A DNA stretch of 64,000 bases from Streptomyces sp. AP-93 (GCF_022808175.1 NZ_JALGBX010000012.1:1-64000), one strand, 5' to 3'; positions 36,450 to 64,000 are shown, counted from the first letter of the stretch. Numbers and translations: made by a program. Notes: generated by a model not told the origin, from the sequence alone.

Positions 36450-36644
36450 TCAGGGGCCGGCGGCACGGACCCAGGAGCCGGCGGCGACGTGCCGGTGCGG
36501 CCGGATCCAGGGGGCGCGGCGCGGGGGAGGGGCCGGGGGGCCGGCGGCGGGGGAACGGGAGAGGAGGACGGCCGTGAGGGCCGCGAGTTCGGCGGCGTCG
36601 GGGACGCCGCGCAGCACGGTGAAGAGGGGGTCGGAGTGATCCAC
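36450..36644 (-). CDS. accE: Acyl-CoA carboxylase epsilon subunit
   Basis: The 64-residue protein has the AccE N-terminal helix LFTVLRGVPDAAELAALTAV, a Pro/Ala linker and a C-terminal WIRPHRH...GSWVRAAGP segment. In actinobacteria, small epsilon subunits activate the carboxylase formed by AccA and a beta subunit. It starts 7 bases after the beta-subunit gene. The product would help make malonyl-CoA for the polyketide synthase next door. The biotin-carrying alpha subunit is not in the window. Confidence 0.82.
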   Translation of the reverse strand: MDHSDPLFTVLRGVPDAAELAALTAVLLSRSPAAGPPAPPPRRAPWIRPHRHVAAGSWVRAAGP

Positions 36645-36651
36645 GGCGGGC

Positions 36652-38256
36652 CTACTGGGGCGGGTTTCCGTGCTTGCGGTGCGGAAGGTCGGCGTGTTTG
36701 GTGCGGAGCATGGCCAGGGACCGGGCCAGGACGGACCGGGTGCTGCGCGGGTCGATGACGTCGTCGACGAGACCGCGTTCGGCCGCGTAGTACGGGTGCA
36801 TCAACTCCTGGCGGTACTCCTCGATCCGCTGGGCGCGCACGCTCTCGGGACGATCGGAGGCGGCGATCTCGCGCCGGAAGATGACGCCCGCGGCGCCCTC
36901 CGCGCCCATGACGGCGATCTCGTTGGCCGGCCAGGCGAAGGACAGGTCGGCGCCGATGGAGCGCGAGTCCATGACGATGTACGCGCCGCCGTAGGCCTTG
37001 CGCAGGATGAGCTGGACGCGCGGGACGGTGGCGTTGCAGTACGCGTACAGCAGCTTGGCGCCGTGCCGGATGATGCCCCCGTGCTCCTGGTCCTTGCCGG
37101 GCAGGAAGCCCGGGACGTCGAGCAGGGTGACGATCGGGATGTTGAAGGCGTCGCAGAGCTGGACGAAGCGCGCAGCCTTCTCCGAGGCGTTGATGTCGAG
37201 GACGCCGGCCATGGCGGAGGGCTGGTTGGCGACGAGGGCGACGGTGTGGCCGTCGATCCGGGCGAGGGTGCAGATGATGTTGGTCGCCCACTGCTCGTGG
37301 ACCTCGAAGTGCTCTCCGTCGTCGACGAGTTCCGAGATCACGGCGCGCATGTCGTAGGAGTGCGTGGGGTCGGCCGGGACGAGGTCGAGCAGGGACTCGC
37401 AGAGCCGGTCGGCCGGGTCGCCCGTGGGCTCGTACGGGGGGACCTCGCGGTTGTTGGAGGGCAGCAGCGACAGCAGGTGGCGTACGTCGGCGATGCAGCT
37501 CTCCTCGTCGTCGTAGGCGAAGTGGGCGACGCCCGACACGGTGGCGTGGACGTCGGCGCCGCCGAGGCCGTTCTGGCTGATCTTCTCGCCGGTGACGGCC
37601 TGGACGACGTCGGGGCCCGTGATGAACATCTGTGAGGTCTCGCGGACCATGAAGACGAAGTCGGTGAGGGCCGGGGAGTACGCGGCGCCCCCGGCGCAGG
37701 GGCCGAGCATGACGGAGATCTGCGGGATGACGCCGGAGGCGCGGGTGTTGCGGCGGAAGATGCCGCCGTAGCCGGCGAGGGCGGTGACGCCTTCCTGGAT
37801 GCGGGCGCCCGCACCGTCGTTGAGGGAGACCAGCGGGGCCCCGGCGGACTCGGCGAGGTCCATCACCTTGTGGATCTTCTCGGCGTGGGCCTCCCCGAGC
37901 GCGCCGCCGAAGATGCGGAAGTCGTGGGCGTAGGCGAAGACGGTACGGCCGTCCACGGTGCCCCAGCCGGCGACGACGCCGTCGGTGTAGGGGCGCTTGT
38001 CCTCCAGGCCGAAACCGGTGGCGCGGTGCCGGCGCAGGGGTTCGACCTCGGTGAAGGAGCCGGGGTCGAAGAGCAGGTCGATCCGTTCCCGGACGGTCAG
38101 CTTGCCCTTGGCGTGCTGCCGCTCGGTGGCCTGGGACCCGGGGCCGCCCCGGGCCAGCTCGTGAACGGAGTCGAGTTCGGCGGTCCTGGTCCGCAGCGAG
38201 GGGCGGAGGGCTTGGGGGACCTCGGTCACTTGGGGGGATTCGATGAGCACGGTCAT
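36652..38256 (-). CDS. accB: Acyl-CoA carboxylase beta (carboxyltransferase) subunit
   Basis: The 534-residue protein matches AccB/PccB carboxyltransferases. It has HAKGKLTVRERIDLLFDPGSF, the oxyanion-forming segments FIFGGALGEAHAEKI-like and GPCAGGAAYSPALTDF (N-half) and YGGAYIVMDSRSIGADLSFAW (C-half), and DVPGFLPGKDQEHGGIIRHGAK. It transfers CO2 from biotin to acetyl- or propionyl-CoA. The start at 38256 (MTVLIESPQVTEV) is chosen by family N-terminus. Beta and epsilon subunits together at the edge of a polyketide cluster indicate dedicated malonyl-CoA supply. Confidence 0.92.
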   Translation of the reverse strand: MTVLIESPQVTEVPQALRPSLRTRTAELDSVHELARGGPGSQATERQHAKGKLTVRERIDLLFDPGSFTEVEPLRRHRATGFGLEDKRPYTDGVVAGWGTVDGRTVFAYAHDFRIFGGALGEAHAEKIHKVMDLAESAGAPLVSLNDGAGARIQEGVTALAGYGGIFRRNTRASGVIPQISVMLGPCAGGAAYSPALTDFVFMVRETSQMFITGPDVVQAVTGEKISQNGLGGADVHATVSGVAHFAYDDEESCIADVRHLLSLLPSNNREVPPYEPTGDPADRLCESLLDLVPADPTHSYDMRAVISELVDDGEHFEVHEQWATNIICTLARIDGHTVALVANQPSAMAGVLDINASEKAARFVQLCDAFNIPIVTLLDVPGFLPGKDQEHGGIIRHGAKLLYAYCNATVPRVQLILRKAYGGAYIVMDSRSIGADLSFAWPANEIAVMGAEGAAGVIFRREIAASDRPESVRAQRIEEYRQELMHPYYAAERGLVDDVIDPRSTRSVLARSLAMLRTKHADLPHRKHGNPPQ

Positions 38257-38679: not shown

Positions 38680-38687
38680 TACGTCCC

Positions 38688-39038: not shown

Positions 39039-40067
39039 GTGCTGGAACCCCTCGGGGTCGCATGTCATGTGGCCGAGGCTTACCGTGTGTTGCTCCGACA
39101 TCCGGAGTTCACCCCGGCGGAACTTGCTCAATTCCTGAAATGGCCCCTCGAAAAGGTGCGCGAGGCGCTGGATGAATGCGAGCGTCTGTCGCTGATCCGT
39201 TGCTCACCCGAGGACAACACGCGCATTCTTCTCGTGGGGCCGGAGGTCGGCTTGCAGGCGCTGCTCGTGCGCCGCGAGTCGGAATTCCAGCGCCGGCAGC
39301 AGGAAATCGCGGAAAGCCGCGTCGAAGTCTCACGCCTCATCGACGAGTACGCCGCCGCGCAGGAAGAACGCCGCCGCACCGACGTCGAGCGTCTCGTCGG
39401 CATCGACGAGATCCGCTGCCGCATCGAGGAGCTCGCCAATGAGTGCGAGCACACCATGATGTCCTTCCATCCCGGCGGCGGCCTGACCTCCTCGCACCGC
39501 AGCGCCAGCCGCCCCGTCAACGAACTGATGCTGGAACGCGGCGTCGAGATGCGCACCGTCTACCTCGACAGCATCTACAACGACCCGGCCTCCGTCGACC
39601 ACGCCCGCGGACTGGCCGAACGCGGTGCACACGTGCGCACCACAGCCATGCTGCCGCCCCGCATGCTCATCTACGACCGCGCCCGCGCGGTCATCCCCAT
39701 CGACCCCGAGGTCTCGGCCGCCGGGGCACTGGTGTTCCGCGGACCCGGCATCATGGCCACCCTGTGCAACCTGTTCGAGCAGGTGTGGGAGAAGGCCGCC
39801 CCGATCAGCGGAGGACGGCCCCACCGCAGGGAGACCGAGCACGGCGAGCTCTCCGGCCAGGAGCAGACCGTGCTCCAACTCCTCGGCGAGGGCTACACGG
39901 ACGAGGTGGTGGCGCGCAAGCTCGGCGTCTCCGTCCGCACCTGCCGCCGCATCACCGCCGACCTGATGGCCCGCCTCGGCGCGCGGAGCCGTTTCCAGGC
40001 CGGGCTGCGCGCCGTGGAACTCGGCTGGCTGGGAAGCCGGCAGGACGCGGACCTGGGACACGTATAG
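39039..40067 (+). CDS. LuxR-family cluster regulator with TrmB-like N-terminus
   Basis: The 342-residue protein has an N-terminal winged-helix-like segment (about 1-70: ACHVAEAYRVLLRHPEFTPA), a coiled-coil stretch (about 75-130), and a phospholipase-D-like sensor fold (about 130-250: TMMSFHPGG, MRTVYLDSIYND, DRARAVIPIDP). A C-terminal LuxR helix-turn-helix (about 275-335) contains LSGQEQTVLQLLGEGYTDEVVARKLGVS. This TrmB/PLD-like plus LuxR layout is common in pathway-specific regulators of Streptomyces. GTG 39039 follows a G-rich ribosome site. It directly precedes the biosynthetic operon and probably binds the paired CGTATAG motif. Confidence 0.83.
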   Translation: MLEPLGVACHVAEAYRVLLRHPEFTPAELAQFLKWPLEKVREALDECERLSLIRCSPEDNTRILLVGPEVGLQALLVRRESEFQRRQQEIAESRVEVSRLIDEYAAAQEERRRTDVERLVGIDEIRCRIEELANECEHTMMSFHPGGGLTSSHRSASRPVNELMLERGVEMRTVYLDSIYNDPASVDHARGLAERGAHVRTTAMLPPRMLIYDRARAVIPIDPEVSAAGALVFRGPGIMATLCNLFEQVWEKAAPISGGRPHRRETEHGELSGQEQTVLQLLGEGYTDEVVARKLGVSVRTCRRITADLMARLGARSRFQAGLRAVELGWLGSRQDADLGHV

Positions 40068-40160: not shown

Positions 40161-40433
40161 ATGAGCAACGTGAACCTGACGTCCGGCCTTGATGCTGCCC
40201 AGAAGCAGGAGATCAAGGAGATCGTCTGCGACATCCTCGAAATCGAAGAGGACGAGGTCACCGAGACCAGCCTCTTCAAGGAGGACCACGACGCGGACTC
40301 GCTCCGCGCGATCGAGATCCTCGCTGCCCTGGAGCGCACCCAGCACGTGACGATCGAGCAGGGCGAGCTGGCGCGGATGGTCAACCTGGCCGGCGTGTAC
40401 GTCGTGGTCGCCGAGGCCGCGGCCGGCAACTGA
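40161..40433 (+). CDS. Acyl carrier protein 1 of the type II polyketide synthase
   Basis: The 90-residue ACP has the phosphopantetheine site DADSLRAIEI (Ser about 45). It is the first gene of the PKS operon, 40 bases before a ketosynthase gene, and is the likely carrier for chain extension. Acidic helix II (LEIEEDEVTE) is typical. Of the three discrete ACPs in the cluster this is the one nearest the ketosynthases. Confidence 0.9.
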   Translation: MSNVNLTSGLDAAQKQEIKEIVCDILEIEEDEVTETSLFKEDHDADSLRAIEILAALERTQHVTIEQGELARMVNLAGVYVVVAEAAAGN

Positions 40434-40473
40434 CCCGCATCCCGTCCGCAGTGCGTTAGATGGGTGATTGTCC

Positions 40474-41724
40474 ATGAACACAGCTTTGCCAGGCCCCGGC
40501 GCACCCCGACGCCGGGTGGTCATCACCGGACTCGGGGTCGTCACCAGCATCGGCATCGGCGTCGACGCGTTCGCGGCCGGGCTCAAGGAAGGCCGCAGCG
40601 GCGTGAAGCCGATCACGGCCTTCGACACGGAAGGATTCGCACACGCCAACGCGTGCGAGGTCACCGACTTCGACCCGGCCCAGTGGCTGCACCGGGTGGA
40701 CCCGGAGGAACTGGGACGGGCCAGCCAGTTCTCCGTGGCCGCGGCGCGCATGGCGCTGGCGGACGCGGGACTGGCCGACGAGGACGTACGGGCCCTGCGG
40801 TCCCTGGTGTCCGTCGGAACCACCGACGGTGAATCCCGGGACCTGGACCACCTGGTCGCGGTGGGGCTCGACGGCGGACCGGAGGAGTACGCCCCGGCGG
40901 TCGCCCGCCGGATCCCCGCGGGCCGGCTCTCCTCCGGGATCGTCCGCGATCTGGCCCTGGAAGACGTGGAGGCCGTCACGATCCCGACCGCATGCGCGGC
41001 GGGCAACTACGCGGTCGGCTACGGGTACGACGCGCTGCGCAGCGGCGACGTGGACATCGCGCTGTGCGGGGGAGCCGATGCCCTGTGCCGCAAGACCTTC
41101 ACGGGGTTCTACCGGCTGGGAACCATCGCACCCGACGTGTGCCAGCCGTTCGACCGGGACCGGCAGGGCATCCTCACCGGTGAGGGCGCGGGCATCCTCG
41201 TCATGGAGAGCCTGGACTCCGCACTCGCCCGGGGTGCACGGATCTACGCCGAGGTGCTGGGCTACGGACTGGCCTGCGACGCACACCACGCGGTCGCACC
41301 GGACCGCGACAGCATCGCCCGCACCATCGAGATCGCCCACCGCAACGCGGGCGTGACGGCGGACCAGATCGACTTCGTCTCCGCGCACGGCACCGGCACC
41401 AAGGCCAACGACATCACCGAGGCCGGAGCGATCCGGAAGGTCTTCGGCGAGGACGCCATGCCGCGGACGATCTCCATCAAATCGATGATCGGCCACAGCA
41501 TGGGGGCGGCCAGCGCCGTCGCCGCGGCGGCCTGCGCCATCGCCCTGACCGAGGGCTTCATCCCGCCCACCATCAACCACCACGTCACCGACCCCGAATG
41601 CGGCGTGGACTGCGTACCCAACGAGGCCCGCGAGGCCGACCTCGAAATCGTCCAGAACAACGCCCTGGCGTTCGGCGGCAACAACGCGGTCCTCATCCTC
41701 GGCAAGTACCGGAGCGCCGCATGA
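40474..41724 (+). CDS. Ketosynthase (beta-ketoacyl-ACP synthase II type) KS-A
   Basis: The 416-residue FabF-like ketosynthase has an intact triad: Cys in TACAAGNYAVG (about 171), His in SAHGTGTKANDITE (about 308) and His in SIKSMIGHSMGAAS (about 345). It condenses malonyl-ACP with the growing acyl chain. I chose ATG 40474; a TTG two codons earlier is not needed. The gene overlaps the next by 4 bases. Its Cys-less partner is not adjacent, so it may pair with one of the later ketosynthase-like proteins. Confidence 0.92.
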   Translation: MNTALPGPGAPRRRVVITGLGVVTSIGIGVDAFAAGLKEGRSGVKPITAFDTEGFAHANACEVTDFDPAQWLHRVDPEELGRASQFSVAAARMALADAGLADEDVRALRSLVSVGTTDGESRDLDHLVAVGLDGGPEEYAPAVARRIPAGRLSSGIVRDLALEDVEAVTIPTACAAGNYAVGYGYDALRSGDVDIALCGGADALCRKTFTGFYRLGTIAPDVCQPFDRDRQGILTGEGAGILVMESLDSALARGARIYAEVLGYGLACDAHHAVAPDRDSIARTIEIAHRNAGVTADQIDFVSAHGTGTKANDITEAGAIRKVFGEDAMPRTISIKSMIGHSMGAASAVAAAACAIALTEGFIPPTINHHVTDPECGVDCVPNEAREADLEIVQNNALAFGGNNAVLILGKYRSAA

Positions 41725-42878
41725 GCTGGATCATCACCGGCATGGGCGCCGTCGCCAGCATCGGCGGCAGCGTCGGGGAGATCTTCGGATCCCTCGCCGC
41801 GGGGCGCAGCGGACTGGGCGAACTGCGGGGCTACGACCGCTCGAAGTTCCGTGCCCAGGTCGCCTACGAGATAGACGACCGGCCGGCGCCCGGCGTCGAC
41901 GAGCCGCTGCGCGCCACGCGGTGGCTGGAGCAGGCGGTCGCGGCCGCCGTCGCCGACGCCTCGATCGGTGAGGACCTGTCCGGGATTCCCGTCCTGGTCG
42001 GCACCACGCTGCGGGAGCTGCGCTCGGTCGAACTGGCCGCCCGCGACGGCATCCCGTTCGACCCGGCCGACCTGCACTTCGGCACCATGCTGCGGCGCCG
42101 GTTCGGCGCGGCCGACACGCACACCGTCGCCAACGCCTGCTCCGCGTCGCTGTACACCCTGGCGCTCGCCACGGACCTGCTGGAGCTCGGGCACGCGGAC
42201 ACCGTCGTGGTCGCGGGCGTGGACACCATCACCGAGTCCACGTACGGGCTCCTCGACCGCTGCTACCCCGAGGCGCCGGACCGGGTCCGGCCCTTCGACC
42301 GGGCGCGGCGCGGCATGCTGCAGGGGGAGGGCGCGGTCGCCGTCGTCCTGCGGCGGGAGTCGGACGGTCCCGCGGAAGGGGCCCGGGTGCACGCCCGGGT
42401 ACGGGGTGTCGCGGTCAACTGCGACGCCCACCACCCCTCCGCCCCCGAGGCCAAGAGCATCGCCACGGCGGTGCGCGAAGCCCACCGGCGGGCCGGGATC
42501 GACCCGGCCGACGTCGACCTCCTGATGCTGCACGGCACCGGTACCCCGCTCAACGACGAGGCCGAGTCCGAGGCGCTGAGCGCGGTGTTCGCCGGGATCG
42601 AACCGTCGCCCTACATGACGGCGATCAAGTCGATGACCGGTCACACCGCCGGCGCGTCCGGGCTGCACAGCCTGGTCGCGGCGGTGGACGCGATGCGGGA
42701 GCGGATCGTCCCGCCGATCGTCGGGCTCGACGACCCGGTGGCCGCGGTCGAGGGCTTCCGGCTGGTCACGGGCGAGGCGGCACGGCCGGAGACGGACCTG
42801 CGGATGGCCCAGATCAATTCGTTCGGCTTCGGCGGACTCAACGCCGTGGCCATCGTGGAGAAGGTGGACGGGCCGTGA
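41721..42878 (+). CDS. Ketosynthase KS-B
   Basis: The 385-residue FabF-like ketosynthase has an intact triad: VANACSASLYTLA (Cys about 141), LHGTGTPLNDEAE (His about 274) and AIKSMTGHTAGAS (His about 310). It starts at ATG 41721, overlapping the KS-A stop, and overlaps the next gene, a Cys-less ketosynthase homologue, by 4 bases. KS-B plus that protein look like a KS-chain-length-factor pair as in highly reducing type II systems. Confidence 0.92.
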   Translation: MSWIITGMGAVASIGGSVGEIFGSLAAGRSGLGELRGYDRSKFRAQVAYEIDDRPAPGVDEPLRATRWLEQAVAAAVADASIGEDLSGIPVLVGTTLRELRSVELAARDGIPFDPADLHFGTMLRRRFGAADTHTVANACSASLYTLALATDLLELGHADTVVVAGVDTITESTYGLLDRCYPEAPDRVRPFDRARRGMLQGEGAVAVVLRRESDGPAEGARVHARVRGVAVNCDAHHPSAPEAKSIATAVREAHRRAGIDPADVDLLMLHGTGTPLNDEAESEALSAVFAGIEPSPYMTAIKSMTGHTAGASGLHSLVAAVDAMRERIVPPIVGLDDPVAAVEGFRLVTGEAARPETDLRMAQINSFGFGGLNAVAIVEKVDGP

Positions 42879-43894
42879 CCGCTGTCGTCATCACCGGGCT
42901 CGGCACCGCGCTTCGCGGGGTGGACGGGCCGGCCGGACTGCTCCCGGGAGCCGTCACGGACGGCGACCGGACCGACCCGGTGTCCCGGCTGACCGGTCGG
43001 GGCCTGCGCTACAAGGACCGGGCGACCAAGCTCGGCCTCATCGCGGGCCGCGACGCGCTGGAAGCGGCCGGACTGCTCGACGGACCGGACGTGCTGGCGG
43101 TGCCCGGCGACTCCTTCGGGGTCGTGGTCAGCACCAACTACGGCAACGTGGACACCGTCACCGAGACGGTGCGCACCATCGCCGCGGAGACCTACATCGG
43201 GACCAGCCCGATGATGCTGCCGGCCACCTCCAGCAACGTCGTCGCCTCCTGGCTGGCCATCACCCACGGCCTGCGCGGCGCGAACCTCACCCTGTGCAAC
43301 GGTCCGACCTCCGGGCTCGACGCGATCGGCTGGGCCCGGCTGCTGCTGGAGTCCGGCCGGCTGGAGCGGGTGCTGGTGGTCGGCGTGGAGCCCGACAACT
43401 CCGCCGTCCGGGAACTGCTGGACGCCGGAGCGGACGCAACCCCGGCAGCGGGGACGGCGCCCGACCCCGGTCCGTTCGACGGAGCGGCGGCGCTCGTGAT
43501 CGAATCCGCCGAGTCGGCGCGGGCCCGCGGCGCCAGGCCCCTGGCAGAAGTCGGTCCGTACGCCCGGCGCGCCGACCGGGAGGCGGCCACCGCCGCGGTC
43601 CGCGGGGCCGCGCCGGGCCGGGTCGGCCTCTGGTACGTCCCCGAGCGCGCCGCTGCCGCCCGGCCGGACGGTGGTGACGGCCCGGACCACGCGGCCGTCA
43701 CCTCCGACCTGACGGCCCGGCTCGGCTCGTCCTCCGGCGCGCTGGGCGTCCTGCAGGCCGCCGCCGGCGCAGCCTGGCTGGCCGCACAGGACGGCCGGGG
43801 CCTGGTGCTCGCCACCGCGGGAACCGGCGAGGCCCCCCACGACGACGCGGCGGCCGCGCTCATCCTGGCCCCGGTCGCCGCGGACCCGCGGTGA
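42875..43894 (+). CDS. Ketosynthase-like chain-length-factor homologue, Cys replaced by Pro
   Basis: The 339-residue protein has the ketosynthase fold (VVITGLGTALRG at the N-terminus, VVVSTNYGNVDTV, GLDAIGWARLLLESGRLERV). At the active-site position it reads LTLCNGPTSGLDA, so the nucleophilic Cys is replaced, apparently by Pro. The HGTGT and KxxxGH histidines are also absent and the C-terminal half is shortened. It therefore cannot condense on its own and probably acts as the non-catalytic partner of KS-B. It overlaps both neighbours by 4 bases. Confidence 0.83.
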   Translation: MTAVVITGLGTALRGVDGPAGLLPGAVTDGDRTDPVSRLTGRGLRYKDRATKLGLIAGRDALEAAGLLDGPDVLAVPGDSFGVVVSTNYGNVDTVTETVRTIAAETYIGTSPMMLPATSSNVVASWLAITHGLRGANLTLCNGPTSGLDAIGWARLLLESGRLERVLVVGVEPDNSAVRELLDAGADATPAAGTAPDPGPFDGAAALVIESAESARARGARPLAEVGPYARRADREAATAAVRGAAPGRVGLWYVPERAAAARPDGGDGPDHAAVTSDLTARLGSSSGALGVLQAAAGAAWLAAQDGRGLVLATAGTGEAPHDDAAAALILAPVAADPR

Positions 43895-44712: not shown

Positions 44713-44714
44713 CC

Positions 44715-48668: not shown

Positions 48669-48770
48669 GAGACCCGCCTCCCGCTGAGGCACCGGCCTCC
48701 TTCCGAGGCACCGGCCCGTCGGCCCCCCTTACGCCGCTCGCGCGGCGACCGAGACGTCAGGAGTACAACG

Positions 48771-50606: not shown

Positions 50607-51106
50607 GTACGCAGGCACAGGAGTTCGGTGTCGACCGGATCAAGTCCACCATCCCGCACCGCACGCCGATCCTGCTCGTGGACCGGGTCGGCGAGGTGGT
50701 ACCGGGCGAGCACCTGACCGCCTACAAGGCCGTATCGGGCAACGAGCCCTGCTACGCGGCCCTCCCGGCGGACGCCCCGGCCTCCGCCTACGCCTACCCG
50801 AACGCCCTGGTCATCGAGTCCTGGGCGCAGGCGGCGGTCCTGCTGTCGGTGTGGGAGCAGCCCAACCCGGACGTGCTGGCCGGAAAGGTCGAGCTCGCGG
50901 GCGCCATCAACGGCGTCGAGATCTCCGGCCGGGTCCACCCCGGCGAGGTCCTGGAGCACCGGGTCCGGCTGGTCCGCGCGGTCGATGACACGGCGATCCT
51001 GGCCGGCGAGACGCTGGCCGGCGGCCGCCCGGTGATGAGCTTCCAAACCTTCGTCGTCGCCCTGCGCGACGTCACCGAGCTGCTGCCCGCCGGCCAGAGC
51101 GTCTGA
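50603..51106 (+). CDS. FabZ-like hotdog dehydratase subunit lacking the catalytic His
   Basis: The 167-residue protein starts like FabZ (VDRIKSTIPHRTPILLVDRV). The expected HFPxxPxxPG motif is replaced by SAYAYPNALVIESWAQAAVL: the Glu and the following W-A-Q are kept but the His is gone. Together with the upstream subunit, which has His, it may build a heterodimeric dehydratase with one full active site. Overlapping start and stop codons support a complex. Confidence 0.78.
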   Translation: MSTQAQEFGVDRIKSTIPHRTPILLVDRVGEVVPGEHLTAYKAVSGNEPCYAALPADAPASAYAYPNALVIESWAQAAVLLSVWEQPNPDVLAGKVELAGAINGVEISGRVHPGEVLEHRVRLVRAVDDTAILAGETLAGGRPVMSFQTFVVALRDVTELLPAGQSV

Positions 51107-51120
51107 GAGGGGACGACACC

Positions 51121-56426: not shown

Positions 56427-58153
56427 CCACCGCCCTCACCCCCGTGGCAGCGCCGCCCGCCGAGGCGGTCCCCACCGCCGACCGGATCGCCGACCTGGAA
56501 CGACGGCTCGGGAACCCCCTCGACCCCGCCAACCCGCTGGGGCACGCCGCCGTACTGGCCGCCGACGAACGCGGCGAGCTGCTCGCCGCCGGTGAACGGA
56601 TGCTGGCGGACTACGGGCTGGGCTCCGAGTTCGTGCCCACGGCCCTCGGCGGCCGCCTGGACCGCGCCGACGGCCTGGCCCACCTGATGCGCGCCGTGTT
56701 CCGCCGGGACTGCGCGCTCGGCATCGGCTACGGCATCACCAGCTTCATCGCCGCCCTGCCCGTCTGGGCCTCGGGCAGCGCCGAGCAGCAGCGCCGGGTC
56801 GCCGGCCTGCTCGCGTCCGGCGGCCGCATCGTCGCCGCGTACACCGAGCTGGCGCACGGCAGCGACTTCTCCCGCACCACGCTCAGCGCCACGCCCTCGG
56901 CCGACGGCGCCGGCCTCGTCCTGGACGGCGGCAAACAGCTCGTCAACAACGTCTCCCGCGCCGAGGCGGCCCTGCTGTTCGCACGCACCGACGACCGGCC
57001 CGGCAGCCGCAGCCAATCCCACCTCCTGGTGGACCTGACCTCGCTGCCGCCCGACCGGATGCGCCGGGATCGCCGCTACCCCACCTCGGGGGTGCGCGGC
57101 TGCCTCCTCGGCGGTGTCGACTTCGACCGGTGCCCGGTCCCGGCCGATGCCGTCGTCGGCGAGAGCGGAGGTGCGACGGAGACCGTGCTGCGCGCCTTCC
57201 AGGTCACCCGCAGCGTGCTGCCCGGCATGGTCGTCGGCGTCGGAGACACCCAGCTGCGCACCGTCGTGGGCTTCGCCCGCGACCGGATCCTCTACGGGCG
57301 GCCGGTCGCCGGGCTGCCGCACGCGCGGGCCACCCTCATCGCGAGCTTCCTCGACCTGCTGGTCTGCGACGCGCTCGCCACGGTCGGGGCGCGCTCGCTG
57401 CACCTGCTGCCCGAGGAGACCAGCATCCAGTCGGCCGCCGTGAAGTACCTGGTGCCCAAGCTCCTCCAGGACTCCTCCTACCGGCTGTCGGTCCTGCTCG
57501 GCGCCCGCAGCTACCTGCGCGAGGGCCCGTACGCCATCTTCCAGAAGGCCGCCCGCGACCTGCCCGTGGTCGCCCTCGCGCACGCGGGCAGCGCCGTGTG
57601 CCTGGCCACGATCGTGCCGCAACTGCCCCGCATGGCCGAGCGCGCCTGGCCGGACACCACCGGGGAACAGCCCCCCGAAGCGCTGTTCCGGCCCGGCGCC
57701 GCCCTGCCGCCGCTCGACCTCGGCCGCCTGGAGCTCAACTCCCGGGGCCGCGACAGCCTCACCCGGCTGCTGTCCGCCTCCTACGAGGACCCGCGGGTCG
57801 ACGCACTGGCCCGGATGTTCGCCGACGAGCTGCGGGACCTGGGCCGCCGGGCGGCCGCCCTGCCGCCCCGGGACCGCACCGTGATCGCCGGCCGCCGGGG
57901 CTTCGTCCTCGCCGAGCGCTACACCTACCTGCTGGCCGCCGCCGCCTGCCTGGGCACGTACCGCCACGGCGAGGGCTTCACGGCCGACCCGGCCTGGGTC
58001 ATCGGCGCCCTGCACCGCCTCGCCGGCCGGATGGGGCTGCGCCCGGGGCCCCTGGAGCGGGAGGTCACCGACCGGCTGGCCGGGGAGATCGACGAGCGGT
58101 TCGACCACGGGCTCACGTACGACCTGAACCGCGGGCGGCTCACCCGGCCGTGA
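56423..58153 (+). CDS. Acyl-CoA dehydrogenase-like acyl-ACP dehydrogenase 2
   Basis: The 576-residue paralogue of the preceding gene has AYTELAHGSDFSRTTLS, LDGGKQLVNNVSRAEAALLFART, AFQVTRSVLPGMVVGVGDTQLRT and LLGARSYLREGPYAIFQKAARDLPVV. In this copy the segment equivalent to IVGIFDGSTVV reads LPVVALAHAGSAVC, so the catalytic surroundings differ from those of its neighbour. Two different dehydrogenases suggest two desaturations, for example formation of a 2,4-dienoyl chain. It starts at ATG 56423. Confidence 0.86.
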   Translation: MTTALTPVAAPPAEAVPTADRIADLERRLGNPLDPANPLGHAAVLAADERGELLAAGERMLADYGLGSEFVPTALGGRLDRADGLAHLMRAVFRRDCALGIGYGITSFIAALPVWASGSAEQQRRVAGLLASGGRIVAAYTELAHGSDFSRTTLSATPSADGAGLVLDGGKQLVNNVSRAEAALLFARTDDRPGSRSQSHLLVDLTSLPPDRMRRDRRYPTSGVRGCLLGGVDFDRCPVPADAVVGESGGATETVLRAFQVTRSVLPGMVVGVGDTQLRTVVGFARDRILYGRPVAGLPHARATLIASFLDLLVCDALATVGARSLHLLPEETSIQSAAVKYLVPKLLQDSSYRLSVLLGARSYLREGPYAIFQKAARDLPVVALAHAGSAVCLATIVPQLPRMAERAWPDTTGEQPPEALFRPGAALPPLDLGRLELNSRGRDSLTRLLSASYEDPRVDALARMFADELRDLGRRAAALPPRDRTVIAGRRGFVLAERYTYLLAAAACLGTYRHGEGFTADPAWVIGALHRLAGRMGLRPGPLEREVTDRLAGEIDERFDHGLTYDLNRGRLTRP

Positions 58154-58262: not shown

Positions 58263-58541
58263 ATGTCCGAAGTCACCGTCGCAGCAACCACCAAGGCGGA
58301 TCCGCAGGAGATCCGCGACTGGCTCGTCCACCGCGTCGCCTACTTCCTCGAGTGCCCCGTGAGCCAGATCGACGCCACCGCCCATCTCGTCGAGATCGGG
58401 CTGGACTCCGTCTACGCGCTGACCCTGTGCGGCGACGTGGAGGACCGGTTCGGTCTCCTCGTGGAACCGACCATGGCCTGGGACCACCCCACGGTCGATG
58501 CCATCACCGTCTATCTGGCGGGCGAATTGGAGCGGCTGTGA
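58263..58541 (+). CDS. Acyl carrier protein 3 (acyl-AMP ligase/dehydrogenase partner)
   Basis: The 92-residue ACP has the phosphopantetheine site EIGLDSVYALTLCGDVE (Ser about 49). The Leu-Asp-Ser-Val form resembles polyketide/non-ribosomal carrier domains more than the two other ACPs do. It follows the acyl-AMP ligase and dehydrogenases, so it probably receives the activated acyl group and presents it to the condensation domain. The ribosome site AAAGGAG is strong. It overlaps the SbnA-like gene by 4 bases. Confidence 0.88.
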   Translation: MSEVTVAATTKADPQEIRDWLVHRVAYFLECPVSQIDATAHLVEIGLDSVYALTLCGDVEDRFGLLVEPTMAWDHPTVDAITVYLAGELERL

Positions 58542-59530
58542 ACAGCGAAGGCCGTAAACCGTACCAAGGGATCCTGGCGACCATAGGGAACACTCCCCTG
58601 GTCGAACTGAAGAGCCTGCTCCCGGGATTCGGCTCCCGGGTCTTCGCCAAGGTGGAGCGGTTCAACCCCGGCGGCAGCATCAAGGACCGGTCCGCACTGC
58701 GCATGCTCATCGACGCGGTGAGCAGCGGAGAGCTGGAACCGGGCCGGTCGGTCGTCGTCGAGTCCAGCTCCGGGAACCTCGCGGTCGGGCTCGCCCAGAT
58801 CTGCCGCTACTTCGGGTTCCGCTTCATCTGCGTGGTCGACGGCAAGACCACCGAGCAGAACCTCGCCATCCTCGCGGCCTTCGGGGCCGAGGTGGAGGTC
58901 ATCACCGAACGGGACCGGGCCACCGGCGAGTACCTGCCGATGCGCCTGCGGCGGGTGCGCGAACTGGTCGCGACGGTCCCGCACGCCTACTGGCCCAACC
59001 AGTACGCCAACCCGCTCAACCCGCGCGCCCACGAAGTCACCATGCGGGAGATCGACGACGCCCTGGACGGGCAGGTCGACTTCCTCTTCGCCTCGGTGAG
59101 CACCTTCGGGACCCTGCGCGGCTGCGCCGACCACATCCGCAAGGCCGGCCTGGACACCAAGGTCGTCGCGGTGGACGCGCTGGGCAGCGCCATCTTCGGT
59201 CTGGAGCCGACACAGCGGCTCATCCCCGGGCACGGCGCGTCCGTCGTGCCGCCGCTCATGGACCCGGACGCACCCGACGAGATCGTGCACGTCTCCGACG
59301 TCGACTGCGTGGCGGCCTGCCGCCGGCTGGTGGGCCGTGAGGCCATCCTCGCCGGGGGCTCCTCCGGAGCCACCGTCGCGGCCCTCCAGAGGTTCCGGGA
59401 CCGCGTTCCCGAAGGATCGAACTGCGTACTCATCTTCCCCGACGGGGGAGACCGCTATCTCGACACCATCTATTCCGACGCGTGGGTGCAGCGCAACTTC
59501 GGAGAGATATCCCACCTCTGGAAGGACTGA
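58538..59530 (+). CDS. SbnA-like PLP enzyme for 2,3-diaminopropionate (N-(2-amino-2-carboxyethyl)-L-glutamate synthase)
   Basis: The 330-residue cysteine-synthase-fold protein has the PLP Lys in VERFNPGGSIKDRSALRM (about 46), the substrate loop VVESSSGNLAVGLAQ, and a glycine-rich phosphate-binding segment AGGSSGATVAAL. By family, SbnA condenses O-phosphoserine and glutamate to an adduct that SbnB oxidises to L-2,3-diaminopropionate. The matching SbnB-like gene is two genes downstream, which makes this more likely than cysteine synthesis. GTG 58538 overlaps the ACP stop. Confidence 0.85.
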   Translation: MNSEGRKPYQGILATIGNTPLVELKSLLPGFGSRVFAKVERFNPGGSIKDRSALRMLIDAVSSGELEPGRSVVVESSSGNLAVGLAQICRYFGFRFICVVDGKTTEQNLAILAAFGAEVEVITERDRATGEYLPMRLRRVRELVATVPHAYWPNQYANPLNPRAHEVTMREIDDALDGQVDFLFASVSTFGTLRGCADHIRKAGLDTKVVAVDALGSAIFGLEPTQRLIPGHGASVVPPLMDPDAPDEIVHVSDVDCVAACRRLVGREAILAGGSSGATVAALQRFRDRVPEGSNCVLIFPDGGDRYLDTIYSDAWVQRNFGEISHLWKD

Positions 59531-59535: not shown

Positions 59536-60909
59536 ATGCTGATGTCCGCCGGCCAGGAGGGCCTGTGGCTGGCCCACCAGCTCGATCCGCAGAGCCCGGC
59601 CTACAACGTCGTCCTCGCCGTCCGGATCCGCACCGCGCTCGACACCGGTGCGCTGCGGCGGGCGCTGACCTTCCTCGTGGAACGTCACGAGCTGCTCCGC
59701 TCCCGCTTCCCCGCGGACGGGGACGGGGACGGCCACGGCGAGGACGCCCGCGACGACGGCCGGCCGGTCCGGCGGACCGTGCCGGCGGACGAGGTGCGCC
59801 TCGACGTGCGGGACGTCCCCGGAGCCGACGACGAGGCCCTCTTCGACCTCGCCCGGAGGGCCGGCGAGGAACCCTTCCGGCTCGCCTCCGAAGGGGCGTT
59901 CCGCGCGGTGCTGCTGCGCCGCGCCCCGGACGACGCGGTGCTGCTCACCGCCACCCACCACATCGTCAGCGACGCCACCTCGCAGTGGATCCTCGTACGC
60001 GACCTGCTCCACGCGTACGAGGCCGCCGCGGCGGGCACCCGCCCGGACTGGCCGCCGCTGGAGGCGACCTGGGACGAGTACGTGGCGGCCGAGCGGCGCC
60101 TGGCCGGCTCCCCGCGCGGCCTGCGCGCCGCCGACTACTGGCGCGAGGTGTGTGCGGACGTCCCCCTGGCGACCCTGCCGGCCGACCGGCCCCGGCCCGC
60201 CTGGCGCACCCTCAACGGAGCCACCCACGAACTGCGTCTGCACGAGGACGACGCGGCGCGGCTGCGCGCCGCCGCCAAGGAATCCCGGCTGACCCCCTTC
60301 GCATGGCTGCTCGGCGCCTTCCAGGCCGCCCTGTACAGATCGGGGAGCGGCCCCCGCTTCCTCATCGGCTGCCCGGCCACCACCCGCCTGCAGCCGGGCA
60401 CCCGCGAAGCCGTGGGCTACTACGTCAACGCCCTGCCGGTCACCGCGGGGATCGGCCCGTCGACCTCCCTCGGGGAGCTGGCGCACGGCGCGCACCTGCA
60501 GCTGCTGCGCGGCATGTCCCACATCGCGTACCCGCTCGAACTCATCGGCCGGGGCGAACTGTTCAAGGTGTCCTTCACCTCGGTCGCCGCCGACCGACTG
60601 CCCGTCCCGGGCCTCTTCCAGGGCCCCGTGGAGCACCGCGGACTGCGCCTGGAGCTGTGCGACGTCCCGCAGCAGGAGGGCCAGCTCGACCTGACGGTGG
60701 AGGTGCTCGAGAGCGCCTCCGGGTTCACCGCGCTCCTGCGGTACAACACCGACCTGTTCGACGCCGCCACCGTCGAGCGGTTCGCGGACACCTACGCGCG
60801 TCTGCTGCGGGCCGGCCTGGACGACCCCGCCGCCCCGGTCGCCGAGGCGTCGCTCGTCGACGCCGACGACCTGGCGTTCCTGCTGGCCCTGGGCAGTGGC
60901 GCGGCATGA
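59536..60909 (+). CDS. Free-standing non-ribosomal peptide condensation domain
   Basis: The 457-residue protein is a single condensation domain. MSAGQEGLWLAHQLDPQSPAYN is motif C1, the catalytic HHxxxD is LLTATHHIVSDATSQW (about 141-146), and GYYVNALPV, then later blocks to DLTVEVLES complete the fold. No adenylation or carrier domain is attached. Because the NRPS at 62572 begins with an adenylation domain, this protein probably joins the acyl chain from ACP 3 to the first amino acid in trans. ATG 59536 is 5 bases after the SbnA-like stop. Confidence 0.87.
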   Translation: MLMSAGQEGLWLAHQLDPQSPAYNVVLAVRIRTALDTGALRRALTFLVERHELLRSRFPADGDGDGHGEDARDDGRPVRRTVPADEVRLDVRDVPGADDEALFDLARRAGEEPFRLASEGAFRAVLLRRAPDDAVLLTATHHIVSDATSQWILVRDLLHAYEAAAAGTRPDWPPLEATWDEYVAAERRLAGSPRGLRAADYWREVCADVPLATLPADRPRPAWRTLNGATHELRLHEDDAARLRAAAKESRLTPFAWLLGAFQAALYRSGSGPRFLIGCPATTRLQPGTREAVGYYVNALPVTAGIGPSTSLGELAHGAHLQLLRGMSHIAYPLELIGRGELFKVSFTSVAADRLPVPGLFQGPVEHRGLRLELCDVPQQEGQLDLTVEVLESASGFTALLRYNTDLFDAATVERFADTYARLLRAGLDDPAAPVAEASLVDADDLAFLLALGSGAA

Positions 60910-60978: not shown

Positions 60979-61977
60979 ATGCTGATACTCCGGCGGGCGG
61001 ACGTGTCGGAAATTCTGTCCGGCAGCGAGTCGGAGATCATCGACCTCGTCGCGGATGCCTACAAGCTCCACGACGAGGGGAAGACCTCCCTGCCGCACTC
61101 GGTGTTCCTGAGGTTCCCCGAGGAGGAGCACGCACGCGACCGGATCATCGGCCTGCCGGCCTACGTCGGCGGCGGCGCCCCCGCCGCGGGCATGAAGTGG
61201 ATCTCCTCCTTCCCCGGCAACATCGACTCCGGCCTGGAGCGGGCCAGCGCGGCCGTCGTCCTGAACTCCCTCGACACCGGCCACCCGGTGGCGTTCGTCG
61301 AAGGCGCCGTCATCTCCGCGAAGCGCACCGCCGCCAGCGCGGCACTGGCCGCCCGCGAACTGACCACCGACGCCCCGCCCGTCTCGGTCCTCCTCATCGG
61401 CTGCGGCGTCATCAACCTGGAGATCCTCCGGTTCCTCGACGCCGCCCTCCCGGACCTGCGCGAGGCCGCGCTCTACGACACCGATCCGGCCCGCGCCGAG
61501 GCGTTCGCCGAGCAGTGCGCCCGTGAGGTGCCCGGCGTCAAGGCCCACCCCGTCACCGACCTGGCCGCCGCCCTGGGCGAGCACCGGCTGGTCTCGCTGG
61601 CCACCACCGCGGCCGAGCCGCACCTGGACCTGGCCGCCTGCGGCCCGGACACGACCGTCCTGCACGTATCGCTCAGGGACCTGACCCCCGAGGCGATCCT
61701 GGCCGCGGTCAACGTGGTCGACGACGCGGACCACGTGTGCCGCGAGCGCACCTCGCTGCACCTGGCCGAACAGCGCACCGGCGACCGCGGCTTCATCGCC
61801 GCCCCGATCGGCGCCCTGCTGCGCGGCACCGCCTCCGTCACCCGCGAGCCCGGCCGGCCCGTCGTCTACTCCCCCTTCGGGCTCGGAGTCCTCGACATCG
61901 CCCTCGCCGCGATGGCCGCGCGCCGCGCCGGCGAACTGGGCCTCGGCGTCCGCGTCGACGACTTCCTGCCCGCGTAG
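60979..61977 (+). CDS. SbnB-like ornithine cyclodeaminase-family dehydrogenase
   Basis: The 332-residue protein has the ornithine cyclodeaminase fold: GMKWISSFPGNIDSGLERAS (substrate Lys), SAKRTAASAALAARELT, the Rossmann block VLLIGCGVINLEILRFL (about 138), and GDRGFIAAPIGALLRG. SbnB is an NAD-dependent enzyme that cleaves the SbnA adduct to L-2,3-diaminopropionate and 2-oxoglutarate. Finding both enzymes predicts diaminopropionate as a building block. An AGGAAA-type site precedes ATG 60979. It is separated from the SbnA-like gene by the condensation domain and an operator. Confidence 0.85.
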   Translation: MLILRRADVSEILSGSESEIIDLVADAYKLHDEGKTSLPHSVFLRFPEEEHARDRIIGLPAYVGGGAPAAGMKWISSFPGNIDSGLERASAAVVLNSLDTGHPVAFVEGAVISAKRTAASAALAARELTTDAPPVSVLLIGCGVINLEILRFLDAALPDLREAALYDTDPARAEAFAEQCAREVPGVKAHPVTDLAAALGEHRLVSLATTAAEPHLDLAACGPDTTVLHVSLRDLTPEAILAAVNVVDDADHVCRERTSLHLAEQRTGDRGFIAAPIGALLRGTASVTREPGRPVVYSPFGLGVLDIALAAMAARRAGELGLGVRVDDFLPA

Positions 61978-62149: not shown

Positions 62150-62371
62150 ATGACCACCCAGCAGACCGACGAGCGCGTCTTCCGCGTCGTGCTCAACGAC
62201 GAAGAGCAGTACTCGATCTGGTGGGCCGACCGCGACCTGCCCGCGGGCTGGCGTGCCGAGGGCACCGAAGGCCCCCGCGAGACCTGCCTCGCCCGCATCT
62301 CCGAGGTCTGGACCGACCTGCGCCCGGCCTCTCTGCGCCGGCGCACGGCCGACGAGTCCGCCGCGGCCTGA
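62150..62371 (+). CDS. MbtH-like NRPS accessory protein
   Basis: The 73-residue protein fits the MbtH pattern: FRVVLNDEEQYSIWWADRDLPAGW, then the three conserved Trp positions and EVWTDLRPASLRRR. MbtH proteins bind adenylation domains and support their folding and activity. It lies 200 bases upstream of the NRPS gene, with AGGAG before the ATG. Confidence 0.92.
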   Translation: MTTQQTDERVFRVVLNDEEQYSIWWADRDLPAGWRAEGTEGPRETCLARISEVWTDLRPASLRRRTADESAAA

Positions 62372-62571
62372 GCCACCCCCGAGGCCGGGCGGCGTCCCGC
62401 CCCCCGGGGAGCCGCCCGGCCGCCCCCCTTCCCCCCCGCTTCCCCCGTTGTCTTCTCCGCCTCCTCCGCCTTCTCCTCCTTCTCCGCTCCGCGAGGAGCC
62501 ACACCCCCCACACCCCTCCCTCCCCGCCACCACCGGAACCACCAAGACCAGGTCCTCGACAGGAGCAAACC
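62372..62571 (+). other. Polypyrimidine intergenic leader before the NRPS
   Basis: The middle of this 200-base gap is a long C/T tract on the plus strand (about 62395-62490), followed by CCACC repeats and CAGGAG before the NRPS GTG. I see no hairpin terminator. It resembles the leader at 58154-58262. Confidence 0.5.
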
Positions 62572-64000
62572 GTGAACGCCGAACTGCTGCCGGAACGCTT
62601 CGCCGTTCAGGCGTCCCGGACACCGGACGCCGTCGCCGTCCTCGATGCCGGGCGGCCCGTGACCTACCGGGAACTGGACCGCGCGGCCAACCGCCTCGGA
62701 CACTTCCTGCGCGGCCAGGGCGCCGGCCCGGGCACCGTGGTGGGGGTGAGCCTGGACCGGGGCGTCAGCCTGGTCGTGGCGCTCCTCGGCGTGTGGAAGG
62801 CGGGCGCCGCGTACGTGCCGCTGGACCCCGGGCACCCGCACGCCCGGCTCACCGGCCTGATCGAGGACTCGGGCGCGCCGCTCGTGCTCGCGGGTCCCGC
62901 GCTCACCGCCGCCGTGCAGGCGGCCGGAGCCCGGGCCATCGACACCGGAGCACTCGCGGCCGAGCTCGCCGCCCTCCCGGACACCGCACCGCAGGGCCCG
63001 GGCACGGACCCCGACTCCCTGGCCTACGCCATCTTCACCTCCGGTTCCACGGGCAGGCCCAAGGCGGTCGCCGTCACCCACGCCGGCCTCGCGAACCGGG
63101 TCGGCTGGACGGTCGCAGAACACGGCCTGGGCCCCGACGACCGGATCCTGCACAAGACCTCGATCGGCTTCGACGCGGCGGGCTGGGAGATCTTCGGACC
63201 GCTCGTCGCGGGCGGCTCCGTCGTCCTGGCCCCGGCCGGAGCCGAACGCGACCCCTCGGCCCTGCTGCGCGCCGTCGCCGAGCACGAGGTGACCGTCCTC
63301 CAGGTGGTGCCCTCGGTGCTGCGCCTGCTCGCCGACGAACCGGCCGAGGCCTGGGCCGGCGCCAAGGCCCTGCGGCTGCTGTTCTCGGCCGGCGAGCCCC
63401 TGCACTTCGAACTCGTCGCCCGCATCCGCGAACGCGCCCCGGAGGAGCTCGAGGTGTGGAACACCTACGGGCCCACCGAATGCGCCATCGACATCACCGC
63501 CCAGCTCGCCGACCCGGCGCGCACCAGCGGCCCCGTCCCGATCGGACGCCCCCTGCCCGGCATGCGGGTGCTCGTCCTGGACCCGGCCGGCGTCCCTGTC
63601 CCCATCGGCGTCCCGGGCGAGCTGTACGCGGGCGGACCCGGCGTCGCCCGCGGCTACCTGGGCCGCCCCGACCTGACCGCCGAACGCTTCGTGCCCGACC
63701 CCTACGGTCCGGCCGGCTCGCGGCTCTACCGCACCGGGGACCAGGTCCGGTGGAACGCGGACCGGACCCTGGAGTACCTCGGCCGCCTCGACCACCAGGT
63801 CAAGGTGAACGGCGTCCGCATCGAGCCCGGCGAGATCGAGTCCGCGCTCGCCTCTCACCCGTACGTCACCGGCGCCGTCGTCACCGCCCACGCGGCCGAG
63901 GGCGAGGGAGAGGGCAAGCGGCTCGCCGCCCACCTCACCGCCCGCGCCGCACTCACCACCGAGGACCTGCGCGCCTTCCTGCGGGACCGGCTGCCCGACA
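62572..64000 (+). CDS. Non-ribosomal peptide synthetase, first adenylation domain (continues past the window)
   Basis: The gene starts at GTG 62572 after CAGGAG and is open to the edge (476 codons seen). It begins directly with an adenylation domain. Visible motifs are YAIFTSGSTGRPKAVAVTH (A3), FDAAGWEIFGPL (A4), NTYGPTECAID (A5), LYRTGDQVRW (A7) and GRLDHQVKVNGVRIEPGEIE (A8); the window ends just before A10. By eye, the specificity positions read D-A-W-Q-F-A-T-I-D. I do not match this exactly to a known code; the first five recall glutamine-type pockets, with low confidence. No condensation domain precedes it, which fits the free-standing one upstream. Confidence 0.92.
   Translation, partial: MNAELLPERFAVQASRTPDAVAVLDAGRPVTYRELDRAANRLGHFLRGQGAGPGTVVGVSLDRGVSLVVALLGVWKAGAAYVPLDPGHPHARLTGLIEDSGAPLVLAGPALTAAVQAAGARAIDTGALAAELAALPDTAPQGPGTDPDSLAYAIFTSGSTGRPKAVAVTHAGLANRVGWTVAEHGLGPDDRILHKTSIGFDAAGWEIFGPLVAGGSVVLAPAGAERDPSALLRAVAEHEVTVLQVVPSVLRLLADEPAEAWAGAKALRLLFSAGEPLHFELVARIRERAPEELEVWNTYGPTECAIDITAQLADPARTSGPVPIGRPLPGMRVLVLDPAGVPVPIGVPGELYAGGPGVARGYLGRPDLTAERFVPDPYGPAGSRLYRTGDQVRWNADRTLEYLGRLDHQVKVNGVRIEPGEIESALASHPYVTGAVVTAHAAEGEGEGKRLAAHLTARAALTTEDLRAFLRDRLPD

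Follow-up and report, generated by a model that had tools for sequence, protein, structure and literature searches.

The first 64,000 nucleotides of contig C3 of Streptomyces sp. AP-93 (C3:1-64000, NZ_JALGBX010000012.1:1-64000, hereafter the window) and the continuation of this contig to position 118000 were analyzed. In this region a type II polyketide synthase (PKS), a fatty acyl-AMP ligase (FAAL) cassette, and genes for diaminopropionate (Dap) synthesis with a nonribosomal peptide synthetase (NRPS) form one conserved biosynthetic pathway and are not chance neighbors, because the PKS and the FAAL cassette, together with SbnA and the NRPS, stay joined in two genera and on a plasmid. Our model, to which we give an even chance as a whole, is that this one cluster makes a short acylated peptide through an acyl relay from the PKS to the NRPS; the hand-over of the acyl chain, the substrates of the adenylation (A) domains, and the product are what we infer from the genes. 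Contig C3 has 259,729 bases in a genome of 9.38 Mb; genes were called by a script from codon-position GC, and their starts are approximate.

The 31 genes g039 to g069 (C3:40161-84213) were all on the + strand; they overlapped 16 times and were nowhere more than 200 bp apart, and the 184 bp between the PKS and FAAL halves were the second largest gap of this block. The original prediction had put the three enzyme sets in one block of the window, and all of them were found at the positions it named; the gene identities, which it had read from motifs, were borne out by matches to profiles, structure databases, and curated models.

Conservation of the hybrid cluster

For the gene searches in relatives, the best query was kept per place, and where two matches overlapped by more than half of the shorter one the weaker was dropped. 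The PKS and the FAAL cassette were present on one stretch in 14 loci, including that of AP-93, of which 12 were in Streptomyces (one on a linear plasmid) and two in Actinomadura. G534 and WAC 04229 were counted once, and further duplicates among the relatives are possible, their contigs and genomes being of different sizes; genome G473, with PKS and FAAL on different contigs, was left out. The relatives with the hybrid locus were:

G107, G237, G438, G410, G623, G534
Streptomyces sp. ISL-96, E2N166, TRM68367, and S. lacrimifluminis
Actinomadura macra and Actinomadura sp. KC06
Streptomyces sp. NBC_01244, on the 300-kb linear plasmid NZ_CP108489.1 (L142, L143)

SbnA came after the FAAL cassette in 13 of the 13 relatives. 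In the two Actinomadura loci the sole SbnB match (43-46%) lay on the other side of the PKS. On the NBC_01244 plasmid, genes for TauD, a phosphopantetheinyl transferase (PPTase), and SARP were located between the PKS and FAAL halves, and both halves were kept.

In the searches of 392 genomes of the genus, only the 3 to 5 best candidates were scored per genome. The clade of the thioesterase-like protein g044 was represented in seven genomes at 579 bits or more (next, 420.8 bits) and the FAAL clade in eight at 642 bits or more (next, 537.8 bits), and these eight included all seven with the g044 clade. Wider relatives were common: a match to g048 turned up in 96 of the 297 genomes searched in the family, and one to g044 in 60 of the 392 of the genus.

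Five smaller clusters (G236, G064, G186, G259, and G296) contained ACP-KS1-CLF1-KR-isomerase genes, a condensation (C) domain, SbnA, SbnB, MbtH, an NRPS, and a carbamoyltransferase, and no FAAL or acyl-CoA dehydrogenase (ACAD) match was found in the 40 kb read. From these clusters the pair KS1-CLF1 looks like the core of the PKS, while KS2/CLF2, KS3/CLF3, the enoyl reductase, and the FAAL cassette look like additions. Phylogenetic trees separated their SbnA and carbamoyltransferase from the copies of the hybrids. A protein resembling a flavin-dependent halogenase was seen by eye in G186 (L038-L039) and some relatives, and a class II DAHP synthase with an aminodeoxychorismate/anthranilate synthase pair in several of the smaller clusters, hinting at a chlorinated aminobenzoate starter in these.

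The type II PKS

The PKS part (40161-52661) contained acyl carrier proteins (ACPs), ketosynthases (KSs), Cys-less KS-like partners (CLFs), and tailoring enzymes, as follows:

40161..40433, +, g039, ACP of the type II PKS (PF00550; DS motif)
40516..41724, +, g040, ketosynthase KS1 (PDB 6kxd_A 549.7 bits, next 359.2; Cys-His-His present)
41721..42878, +, g041, ketosynthase KS2 (6kxd_A 170.7 bits; Cys-His-His present)
42875..43894, +, g042, Cys-less KS-like partner CLF2 (PF00109 42.5 bits; Cys motif absent)
43930..44712, +, g043, alpha/beta hydrolase (PF12697 59.9 bits)
44715..45677, +, g044, double-hotdog protein with an acyl-ACP thioesterase (FatA) fold (AlphaFold/Foldseek)
45674..46828, +, g045, ketosynthase KS3 (9s5h_B 217.6 bits, 6kxd_A 187.3 bits; Cys-His-His present)
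46825..47844, +, g046, Cys-less KS-like partner CLF3 (PF00109 27.3 bits; Cys motif absent)
47838..48668, +, g047, enoyl reductase of FabL/FabI type (best NCBIfam model FabL, 151 bits, under its cut-off of 328; Y-x6-K)
48771..49901, +, g048, Cys-less partner of KS1, CLF1 (6kxd_B 245.5 bits, next 91.7; adjoins KS1 in the smaller relatives)
49966..50229, +, g049, second ACP (PF00550)
50226..50606, +, g050, FabA-like dehydratase (PF07977 28.6 bits)
50603..51106, +, g051, FabZ-like dehydratase (PF07977 30.6 bits; FabZ models under cut-off)
51121..51885, +, g052, FabG-like ketoreductase (PF13561 222.7 bits; Y-x3-K)
51882..52661, +, g053, DsbA-fold protein like 2-hydroxychromene-2-carboxylate isomerase (PF01323; 3fz5, 3.2e-12)

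Three of the KS proteins had the Cys and both His residues and three lacked the Cys motif, so that three KS/Cys-less pairs are present. Both dehydratases were hotdog proteins. The discrete reducing type II PKS of the original prediction was thus confirmed, but not its count of one KS and one Cys-less KS. We take Y-x3-K to be the motif of the ketoreductase (KR) and Y-x6-K that of the second short-chain dehydrogenase/reductase, g047. By far the best solved match for both g040 and g048 was 6kxd, which we take to be the ishigamide KS-CLF Iga11-Iga12; unlike the ishigamide pair, KS1 and its partner are accompanied here by two more KS/Cys-less pairs and by an enoyl reductase. No phytoene-desaturase-like gene, for which we presume a role in pathways of this kind, showed in the scans of g037 to g072. 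A cinnamoyl group and a linear polyene are equally possible as the acyl group, and the isomerase alone is no proof of ring closure.

On the assumed identity of 6kxd, g040 (6kxd_A, 549.7 bits) is a polyene-class KS; KR, dehydratase (DH), ACP, and isomerase genes stand beside it, and NRPS genes lie within the same cluster. The PKS-NRPS part therefore has all the features by which cinnamoyl-lipid peptide (CCNP) clusters have been mined, and Iga11 belongs to the KS group of that study (PMC6510318; here and below, statements on a cited paper apply to the accessible part of it).

The AlphaFold model of g044 was a double hotdog (pLDDT 82.5), and the protein gave no PDB match by sequence. In the Foldseek search, the first 35 rows were acyl-ACP or putative oleoyl thioesterases, with a TM-score by query of about 0.5-0.56 and an identity of 9-12%. 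The FatA-type fold of g044, with a FAAL encoded downstream, suggests that the chain is released as an acid and then re-activated.

The FAAL cassette and the possible hand-over of the acyl chain

The FAAL cassette (52846-58541) and the free-standing C domain were encoded by the following genes:

52846..54621, +, g054, fatty acyl-AMP ligase (PF00501 215.9 bits; three of the five best NCBIfam models are fatty-acyl-AMP ligases, all under cut-off)
54621..56426, +, g055, acyl-CoA dehydrogenase family (PF00441/PF02770/PF02771)
56423..58153, +, g056, acyl-CoA dehydrogenase family (PF02770 and PF00441 over cut-off, PF02771 under)
58263..58541, +, g057, ACP of the FAAL cassette (PF00550)
59536..60909, +, g059, free-standing condensation domain (PF00668 228.7 bits)

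The FAAL, free ACP, and two acyl dehydrogenases expected of a FAAL lipopeptide cluster (daptomycin, ramoplanin, or rotihibin kind) were all present. In FAAL-initiated lipopeptides the acylating C domain sits on the first NRPS module (PMC9113097); here the NRPS protein g062 started with an A domain, and the C domain was the separate protein g059.

Several observations weigh against an acid relay from the PKS to the FAAL. The fold match of g044 is distant (identity 9-12%, root mean square deviation about 7-10) and extends to acyl-CoA thioesterases. Homologues of g043/g044 are also found in eight type II PKS loci (L093-L100) that gave no FAAL match in about 10 kb of flank, so neither gene is a specific mark of such a relay. 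The eighth genome of the FAAL clade, G611 (L128-L130, C4:6977001-7037000), has the order FAAL-ACP-C-NRPS-PBP (PBP, penicillin-binding protein-type domain), and no match to the PKS, ACADs, or Dap genes was found in the 60 kb read there except a KR at 29%; the cassette thus need not take its acids from a PKS. In the smaller relatives the C domain lies beside KS1/CLF1/KR/isomerase genes without a FAAL, so that direct transfer from the PKS ACP would be possible.

Among the alternatives we rank highest, while still thinking it unlikely, that one peptide receives two acyl groups: an ordinary cellular fatty acid, activated by the FAAL, at the N-terminus, and a product of the type II PKS at another site. 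The G611 cluster, with its FAAL-ACP-C-NRPS-PBP order and no PKS, is in its favor, and the Dap side chain would offer a second amine. However, no second free C domain or peptide acyltransferase was found among the genes scanned, G611 had no ACAD matches, and the PKS and FAAL-ACAD genes remain paired in two genera. Slightly less probable is that the chain passes directly from the PKS ACP to the free C domain, while the FAAL merely salvages hydrolyzed chains or adds a minor congener. The five smaller clusters, which combine a free C domain with KS1/CLF1/KR/isomerase genes and gave no FAAL match in the 40 kb read, point this way, as do the CCNP clusters, whose cinnamoyl group is made by a type II PKS and in whose description the term "acyl-AMP" is absent from the main text (PMC6510318). 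Nevertheless, in those hybrids whose sequence was read beyond the cassette, FAAL-ACAD-ACAD-ACP adjoins SbnA or the C domain, and two conserved dehydrogenases exceed the needs of salvage.

We regard it as improbable that the type II PKS extends an unsaturated primer supplied by the FAAL and the ACADs: a supply of substrates by FAALs is reported for type I and type III PKSs (PMC11837247), but the cassette ACP adjoins the C domain or SbnA and not the KS genes, and FAAL, ACP, and C move together in G611 without a PKS. Two neighboring independent clusters, one for a PKS product and one for a lipopeptide, are least probable of all, since the halves, which do exist apart (PKS loci without FAAL; FAAL-NRPS without PKS) and are separated here by the second largest gap of the block, are joined in 14 loci of two genera, one of them on a plasmid, and are both kept in NBC_01244 despite the TauD, PPTase, and SARP genes between them.

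Dap genes, carbamoyltransferase, and the first residue

The Dap genes and an MbtH-like gene preceded the NRPS:

58538..59530, +, g058, SbnA, Dap synthesis (TIGR03945 429.9 bits, cut-off 349.95)
60979..61977, +, g060, SbnB, Dap synthesis (TIGR03944 407.4 bits, cut-off 326.9)
62150..62371, +, g061, MbtH-like protein (PF03621)

The gene g064, which follows the NRPS, encoded a protein like ornithine carbamoyltransferase (OTC). It scored 243.9 bits with the ArgF model TIGR00658, under the cut-off of 280.85, and had HDLP in place of the HCLP seen in the PF00185 protein that scores highest in this genome; by score and by motif it lay outside the ornithine carbamoyltransferases (ArgF). Because an HDLP-type carbamoyltransferase accompanies the Dap genes, Dap is likely turned into beta-ureidoalanine, and from the sequences it is probably carbamoylated. 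The original prediction of one acylated Dap-containing peptide was right as to a single pathway, given the conserved pairing, but "Dap-containing" is probably too simple. Viomycin and capreomycin clusters presumably share the SbnA/SbnB-like Dap synthesis and the carbamoyltransferase seen here, but are not known to have an acyl chain, PKS, or FAAL.

The A-domain pockets were read by alignment at the standard code positions and with the standard code meanings; in the other loci, an A domain was left out if fewer than 250 residues followed its core motif. The pockets were DAWQFATIDK for A1, DLPKVAEVGK for A2, A4, and A5, and DVWNVAMVHK for A3. The A1 pocket was identical in 12 of the 12 hybrids where it could be read (those of E2N166 and G534 were not readable). 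We take it to resemble the Gln code, and a substrate that would suit it is beta-ureidoalanine, a Gln isostere; we put this assignment just short of an even chance. In the five smaller clusters with the same Dap/carbamoyltransferase genes, the A1 pocket was DALQFATVDK.

Three points count against this assignment. The pocket could simply mean Gln. The G611 FAAL cluster has the near-identical pocket DAWQCATIDK without Sbn or OTC genes beside it. A second NRPS cluster in the AP-93 genome (C12:143966-156020; L137, L138), with MbtH, an HDLP-type carbamoyltransferase (63% to g064), and SbnA-like (39%) and SbnB-like (46%) proteins, leaves it unsupported, as the two A-domain pockets read there (DCGTAAAVDK and DAADVGFVDK) are both without a DAWQ-type pocket. 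The value of G611 as a counter-example was weakened, since about 1 Mb from the FAAL cluster its genome has another cluster, which includes SbnA, SbnB, and a carbamoyltransferase.

That second G611 cluster (C4:5975001-6035000; L139-L141) had the order KS-CLF-KR-C-NRPS-PBP-carbamoyltransferase-SbnA/B and no FAAL match. Its NRPS was longer, with nine A domains read, three of which presumably have a Gly-like pocket.

The NRPS, its unusual C domains, and the putative release domain

The NRPS had five modules of C, A, and thiolation (T) domains across two proteins, running beyond the window; its fused PBP domain and CmodAA-type C domains, like the TauD genes, are located past position 64000, outside the sequence on which the original prediction was based:

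62572..64000 and on to C3:67527, +, g062, NRPS A1-T1-C2-A2-T2 (start chosen by the script)
C3:67524-78533, +, g063, NRPS C3-A3-T3, C4-A4-T4, C5-A5-T5, PBP domain (3669 residues)

In C4 and C5, the HHxxxDG motif begins with Cys instead of His. Among solved structures, those closest to C4 were McyA (193.1 bits) and AmbE (156.5 bits), followed by the next at 86 bits. For the control domain C3 the best match was at 330.5 bits, with AmbE at 88.9 bits (35th of 45) and McyA at 57.2 bits (42nd of 45). The published CmodAA motif is [K/R]SVLLAAH, the published CmodAA set keeps the DG, and two CmodAA domains that act in side-chain conjugation have Cys for the first His (PMC11342130). C5 had the full motif (KSVLLAAH), and C4 had six of its eight positions (KSVLHTAH). 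By sequence, C4 and C5 are predicted to be of the dehydrating CmodAA class, for C4 also by its nearest sequences. Cys in place of the first His, the likeness to McyA/AmbE, and the CmodAA motif suggest that residues 3 and 4 may be dehydrated or bonded through their side chains. From the pockets, residue 3 may be Thr-like and residue 4 Asn-like, perhaps hydroxylated by TauD.

Dehydration is made less certain by the following features. The DG of HHxxxDG was retained in C4 (CHAILDG), but C5 had EG (CHAITEG). The donor T domains of dehydrating C domains are reported to be of GGDSx type (PMC10880069), but those preceding C4 and C5 were GGHSI; GGDSI T domains occurred in some relatives. Among the 11 readable A3 pockets, eight were DVWNVAMVHK and two DFWNVGMVHK, but that of Actinomadura sp. 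KC06 was DLPKIAEVGK, so that module 3 of KC06 has a DLPK pocket instead of a Thr-like one.

The PBP domain of g063 comprised residues 3301-3620 (PF00144, 169 bits), with GSISK (SxxK) at residue 3350 and an HGG motif. A fused PBP domain terminated the NRPS in 10 of the 10 hybrids with a readable end. According to a 2024 review, PBP-type thioesterases are stand-alone and have a lipocalin domain (PMC11735501). The g063 domain shared the PBP/serine beta-lactamase fold and the SxxK motif, but was fused to the NRPS and was not a separate protein that could act in trans. Its assignment as such a thioesterase is opposed by three results: esterase IS11, and not SurE, was the best match by both sequence and fold (SurE was 4th by sequence and 6th by fold); the domain model was weak (pLDDT 64.8); and only about 50 residues follow the domain, which leaves no room for a lipocalin domain. 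The region of the putative Asn equivalent reads KSSTH in g063 and VSNTN in G107.

Further PBP domains were seen in two of the hybrids. The NBC_01244 plasmid also has an MMPL transporter and another large NRPS, to which a PBP domain is likewise fused, with a separate serine hydrolase adjoining. In G410 (L069:1543-8979) the TauD genes are followed by an extra NRPS of two modules that also carries a fused PBP domain (49%).

Proposed pathway

In the relay model, the KS pairs, the KR, the dehydratases, the enoyl reductase, and the isomerase would assemble on the PKS ACPs a chain that is polyunsaturated and may be closed to a ring (cinnamoyl type), and the thioesterase g044 (or the hydrolase g043) would release it as an acid. 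The FAAL would adenylate this acid onto the ACP g057, where the ACADs would introduce one double bond or two, and the acyl chain would be joined to the residue of module 1 by g059, the free C domain. SbnA and SbnB would make Dap, which g064 would convert to beta-ureidoalanine, the residue proposed for module 1. Modules 2, 4, and 5 would add Asn-like residues and module 3 a Thr-like one, TauD enzymes would beta-hydroxylate some of these, and C4 and C5, as CmodAA-class domains, would dehydrate residues 3 and 4. The fused PBP domain would then either hydrolyze the peptide, whose N-terminus is acylated, off the NRPS or cyclize it onto a side chain. The full series (type II PKS acid, FatA-like release, FAAL reloading with desaturation, free C domain, carbamoylated Dap, two CmodAA dehydrations, and PBP release in cis) is a tentative proposal, which we consider rather more likely to fail in some step than to hold throughout.

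If the relay holds, it would be, to our knowledge, the first time that a FAAL takes over a type II PKS product, and a wider choice of acyl groups would be available for lipopeptide engineering. With a PBP-type release domain inside an NRPS, enzymes of this type would be tied to one partner. Our guess is that the product is an antibiotic-like lipopeptide, and it should be obtainable from several culturable strains, as the family occurs in 14 loci. Both main-text matches for "type ii" in the 2025 FAAL review read type III, so no type II PKS is named there (PMC11837247). As far as the accessible parts of this review and of that on PBP-type thioesterases go, neither the pairing of a FAAL with a type II PKS nor a PBP-type release domain acting in cis would have a precedent (PMC11837247, PMC11735501).

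Comparison with known systems

The original prediction had matched the cluster to no known compound. In the literature, the one source searched for characterized clusters and with most subscription journals outside our reach, we likewise found no characterized cluster that matched this one, and no matching cluster for a FAAL joined to a type II PKS, a PBP domain fused in cis, or ureidoalanine/albizziine. The prediction had also called the three sets ones usually found in different clusters. This was correct in part only, because a polyene type II PKS with an NRPS is the CCNP kind (PMC6510318), and FAAL, two ACADs, ACP, and NRPS occur together in rotihibin (PMC8552735).

The CCNP clusters (skyllamycin, WS9326, and kitacinnamycin; PMC6510318) share the polyene-type KS, KR, DH, ACP, and isomerase with an NRPS. 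Here, in addition, there are the FAAL/ACAD/ACP cassette, the free first C domain, the Dap and carbamoyltransferase genes, C domains of CmodAA type, and a PBP domain fused to the NRPS; the cluster thus departs from the CCNP kind in acyl hand-over, building block, and release. The PKSs for globisporamic acid (gla) and youssoufene (ysf) also have three KS-CLF pairs and a glutathione-dependent isomerase-like gene, but their products are free aryl-alkenoic acids, and no FAAL cassette or Dap genes appear in the accessible description (PMC9381841).

The rotihibin cluster rth (PMC8552735) shares the FAAL, two ACADs, ACP, MbtH, an Asn oxygenase, and citrulline (Cit), Thr, and Asn-type residues. In contrast, it has no type II PKS in its gene table, uses diaminobutyrate (Dab) and not Dap, releases its product reductively, and lists no free first C domain. 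Rotihibin was rejected as the identity of this cluster, since with the same FAAL cassette and Asn/Thr content it has no PKS and a reductase end; it is a relative in logic only. The corallorazine cluster crz (PMC11342130) shares an acyl ligase, two ACADs, an ACP, and a CmodAA domain in a lipopeptide pathway, but its acyl group is proposed to come from fatty acid metabolism, it has two modules and reductive release, and no type II PKS or Dap genes are among its eight assigned genes.

The PBP-type thioesterases SurE, PenA, Ulm16, FlkO, and WolJ (PMC11735501) share the serine beta-lactamase/PBP fold, SxxK, and HGG with the domain of g063. However, SurE-type enzymes are stand-alone, have a lipocalin domain, and close the peptide head to tail, whereas here the domain is NRPS-fused, without a lipocalin domain, and the N-terminus is acylated. 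Two further candidates were rejected: enamidonin/olenamidonin, a Dap lipopeptide, because its peptide Phe-Dpr-Dpr-Gly does not fit the pockets (PMC11204786), and the pachycephalamides, because their type II PKS and NRPS lie in separate genomic regions, FAAL being absent from the main text (PMC11446937).

Flanking genes

The biosynthetic part ended at about C3:84213, and an ABC transporter with a SARP regulator extends the cluster to 89547. The remaining genes were:

36652..38256, -, g037, acyl-CoA carboxylase beta-type carboxyltransferase (PF01039 655 bits)
39087..40067, +, g038, LuxR-type regulator (PF00196 29.5 bits), kept in relatives
after g063, to C3:84213, +, carbamoyltransferase (g064), MFS exporter, type II thioesterase, TauD1, PPTase, TauD2
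to C3:89547, FtsX-type ABC pair and SARP regulator on the other strand

The role of g037 is probably extender supply; a gene of this type also adjoins the cluster in ISL-96 and, by annotation, in NBC_01244. A direct repeat flanks the cluster, the copies lying about 66 kb apart (window 28541-30281 and C3:94496-96239; 1755 columns, 91.6% identical), and may be a trace of recombination that duplicated or inserted the cluster. Each copy contains an ABC-transporter gene pair, and related genes precede the copies (g029 and g077, DUF4097-like by eye).

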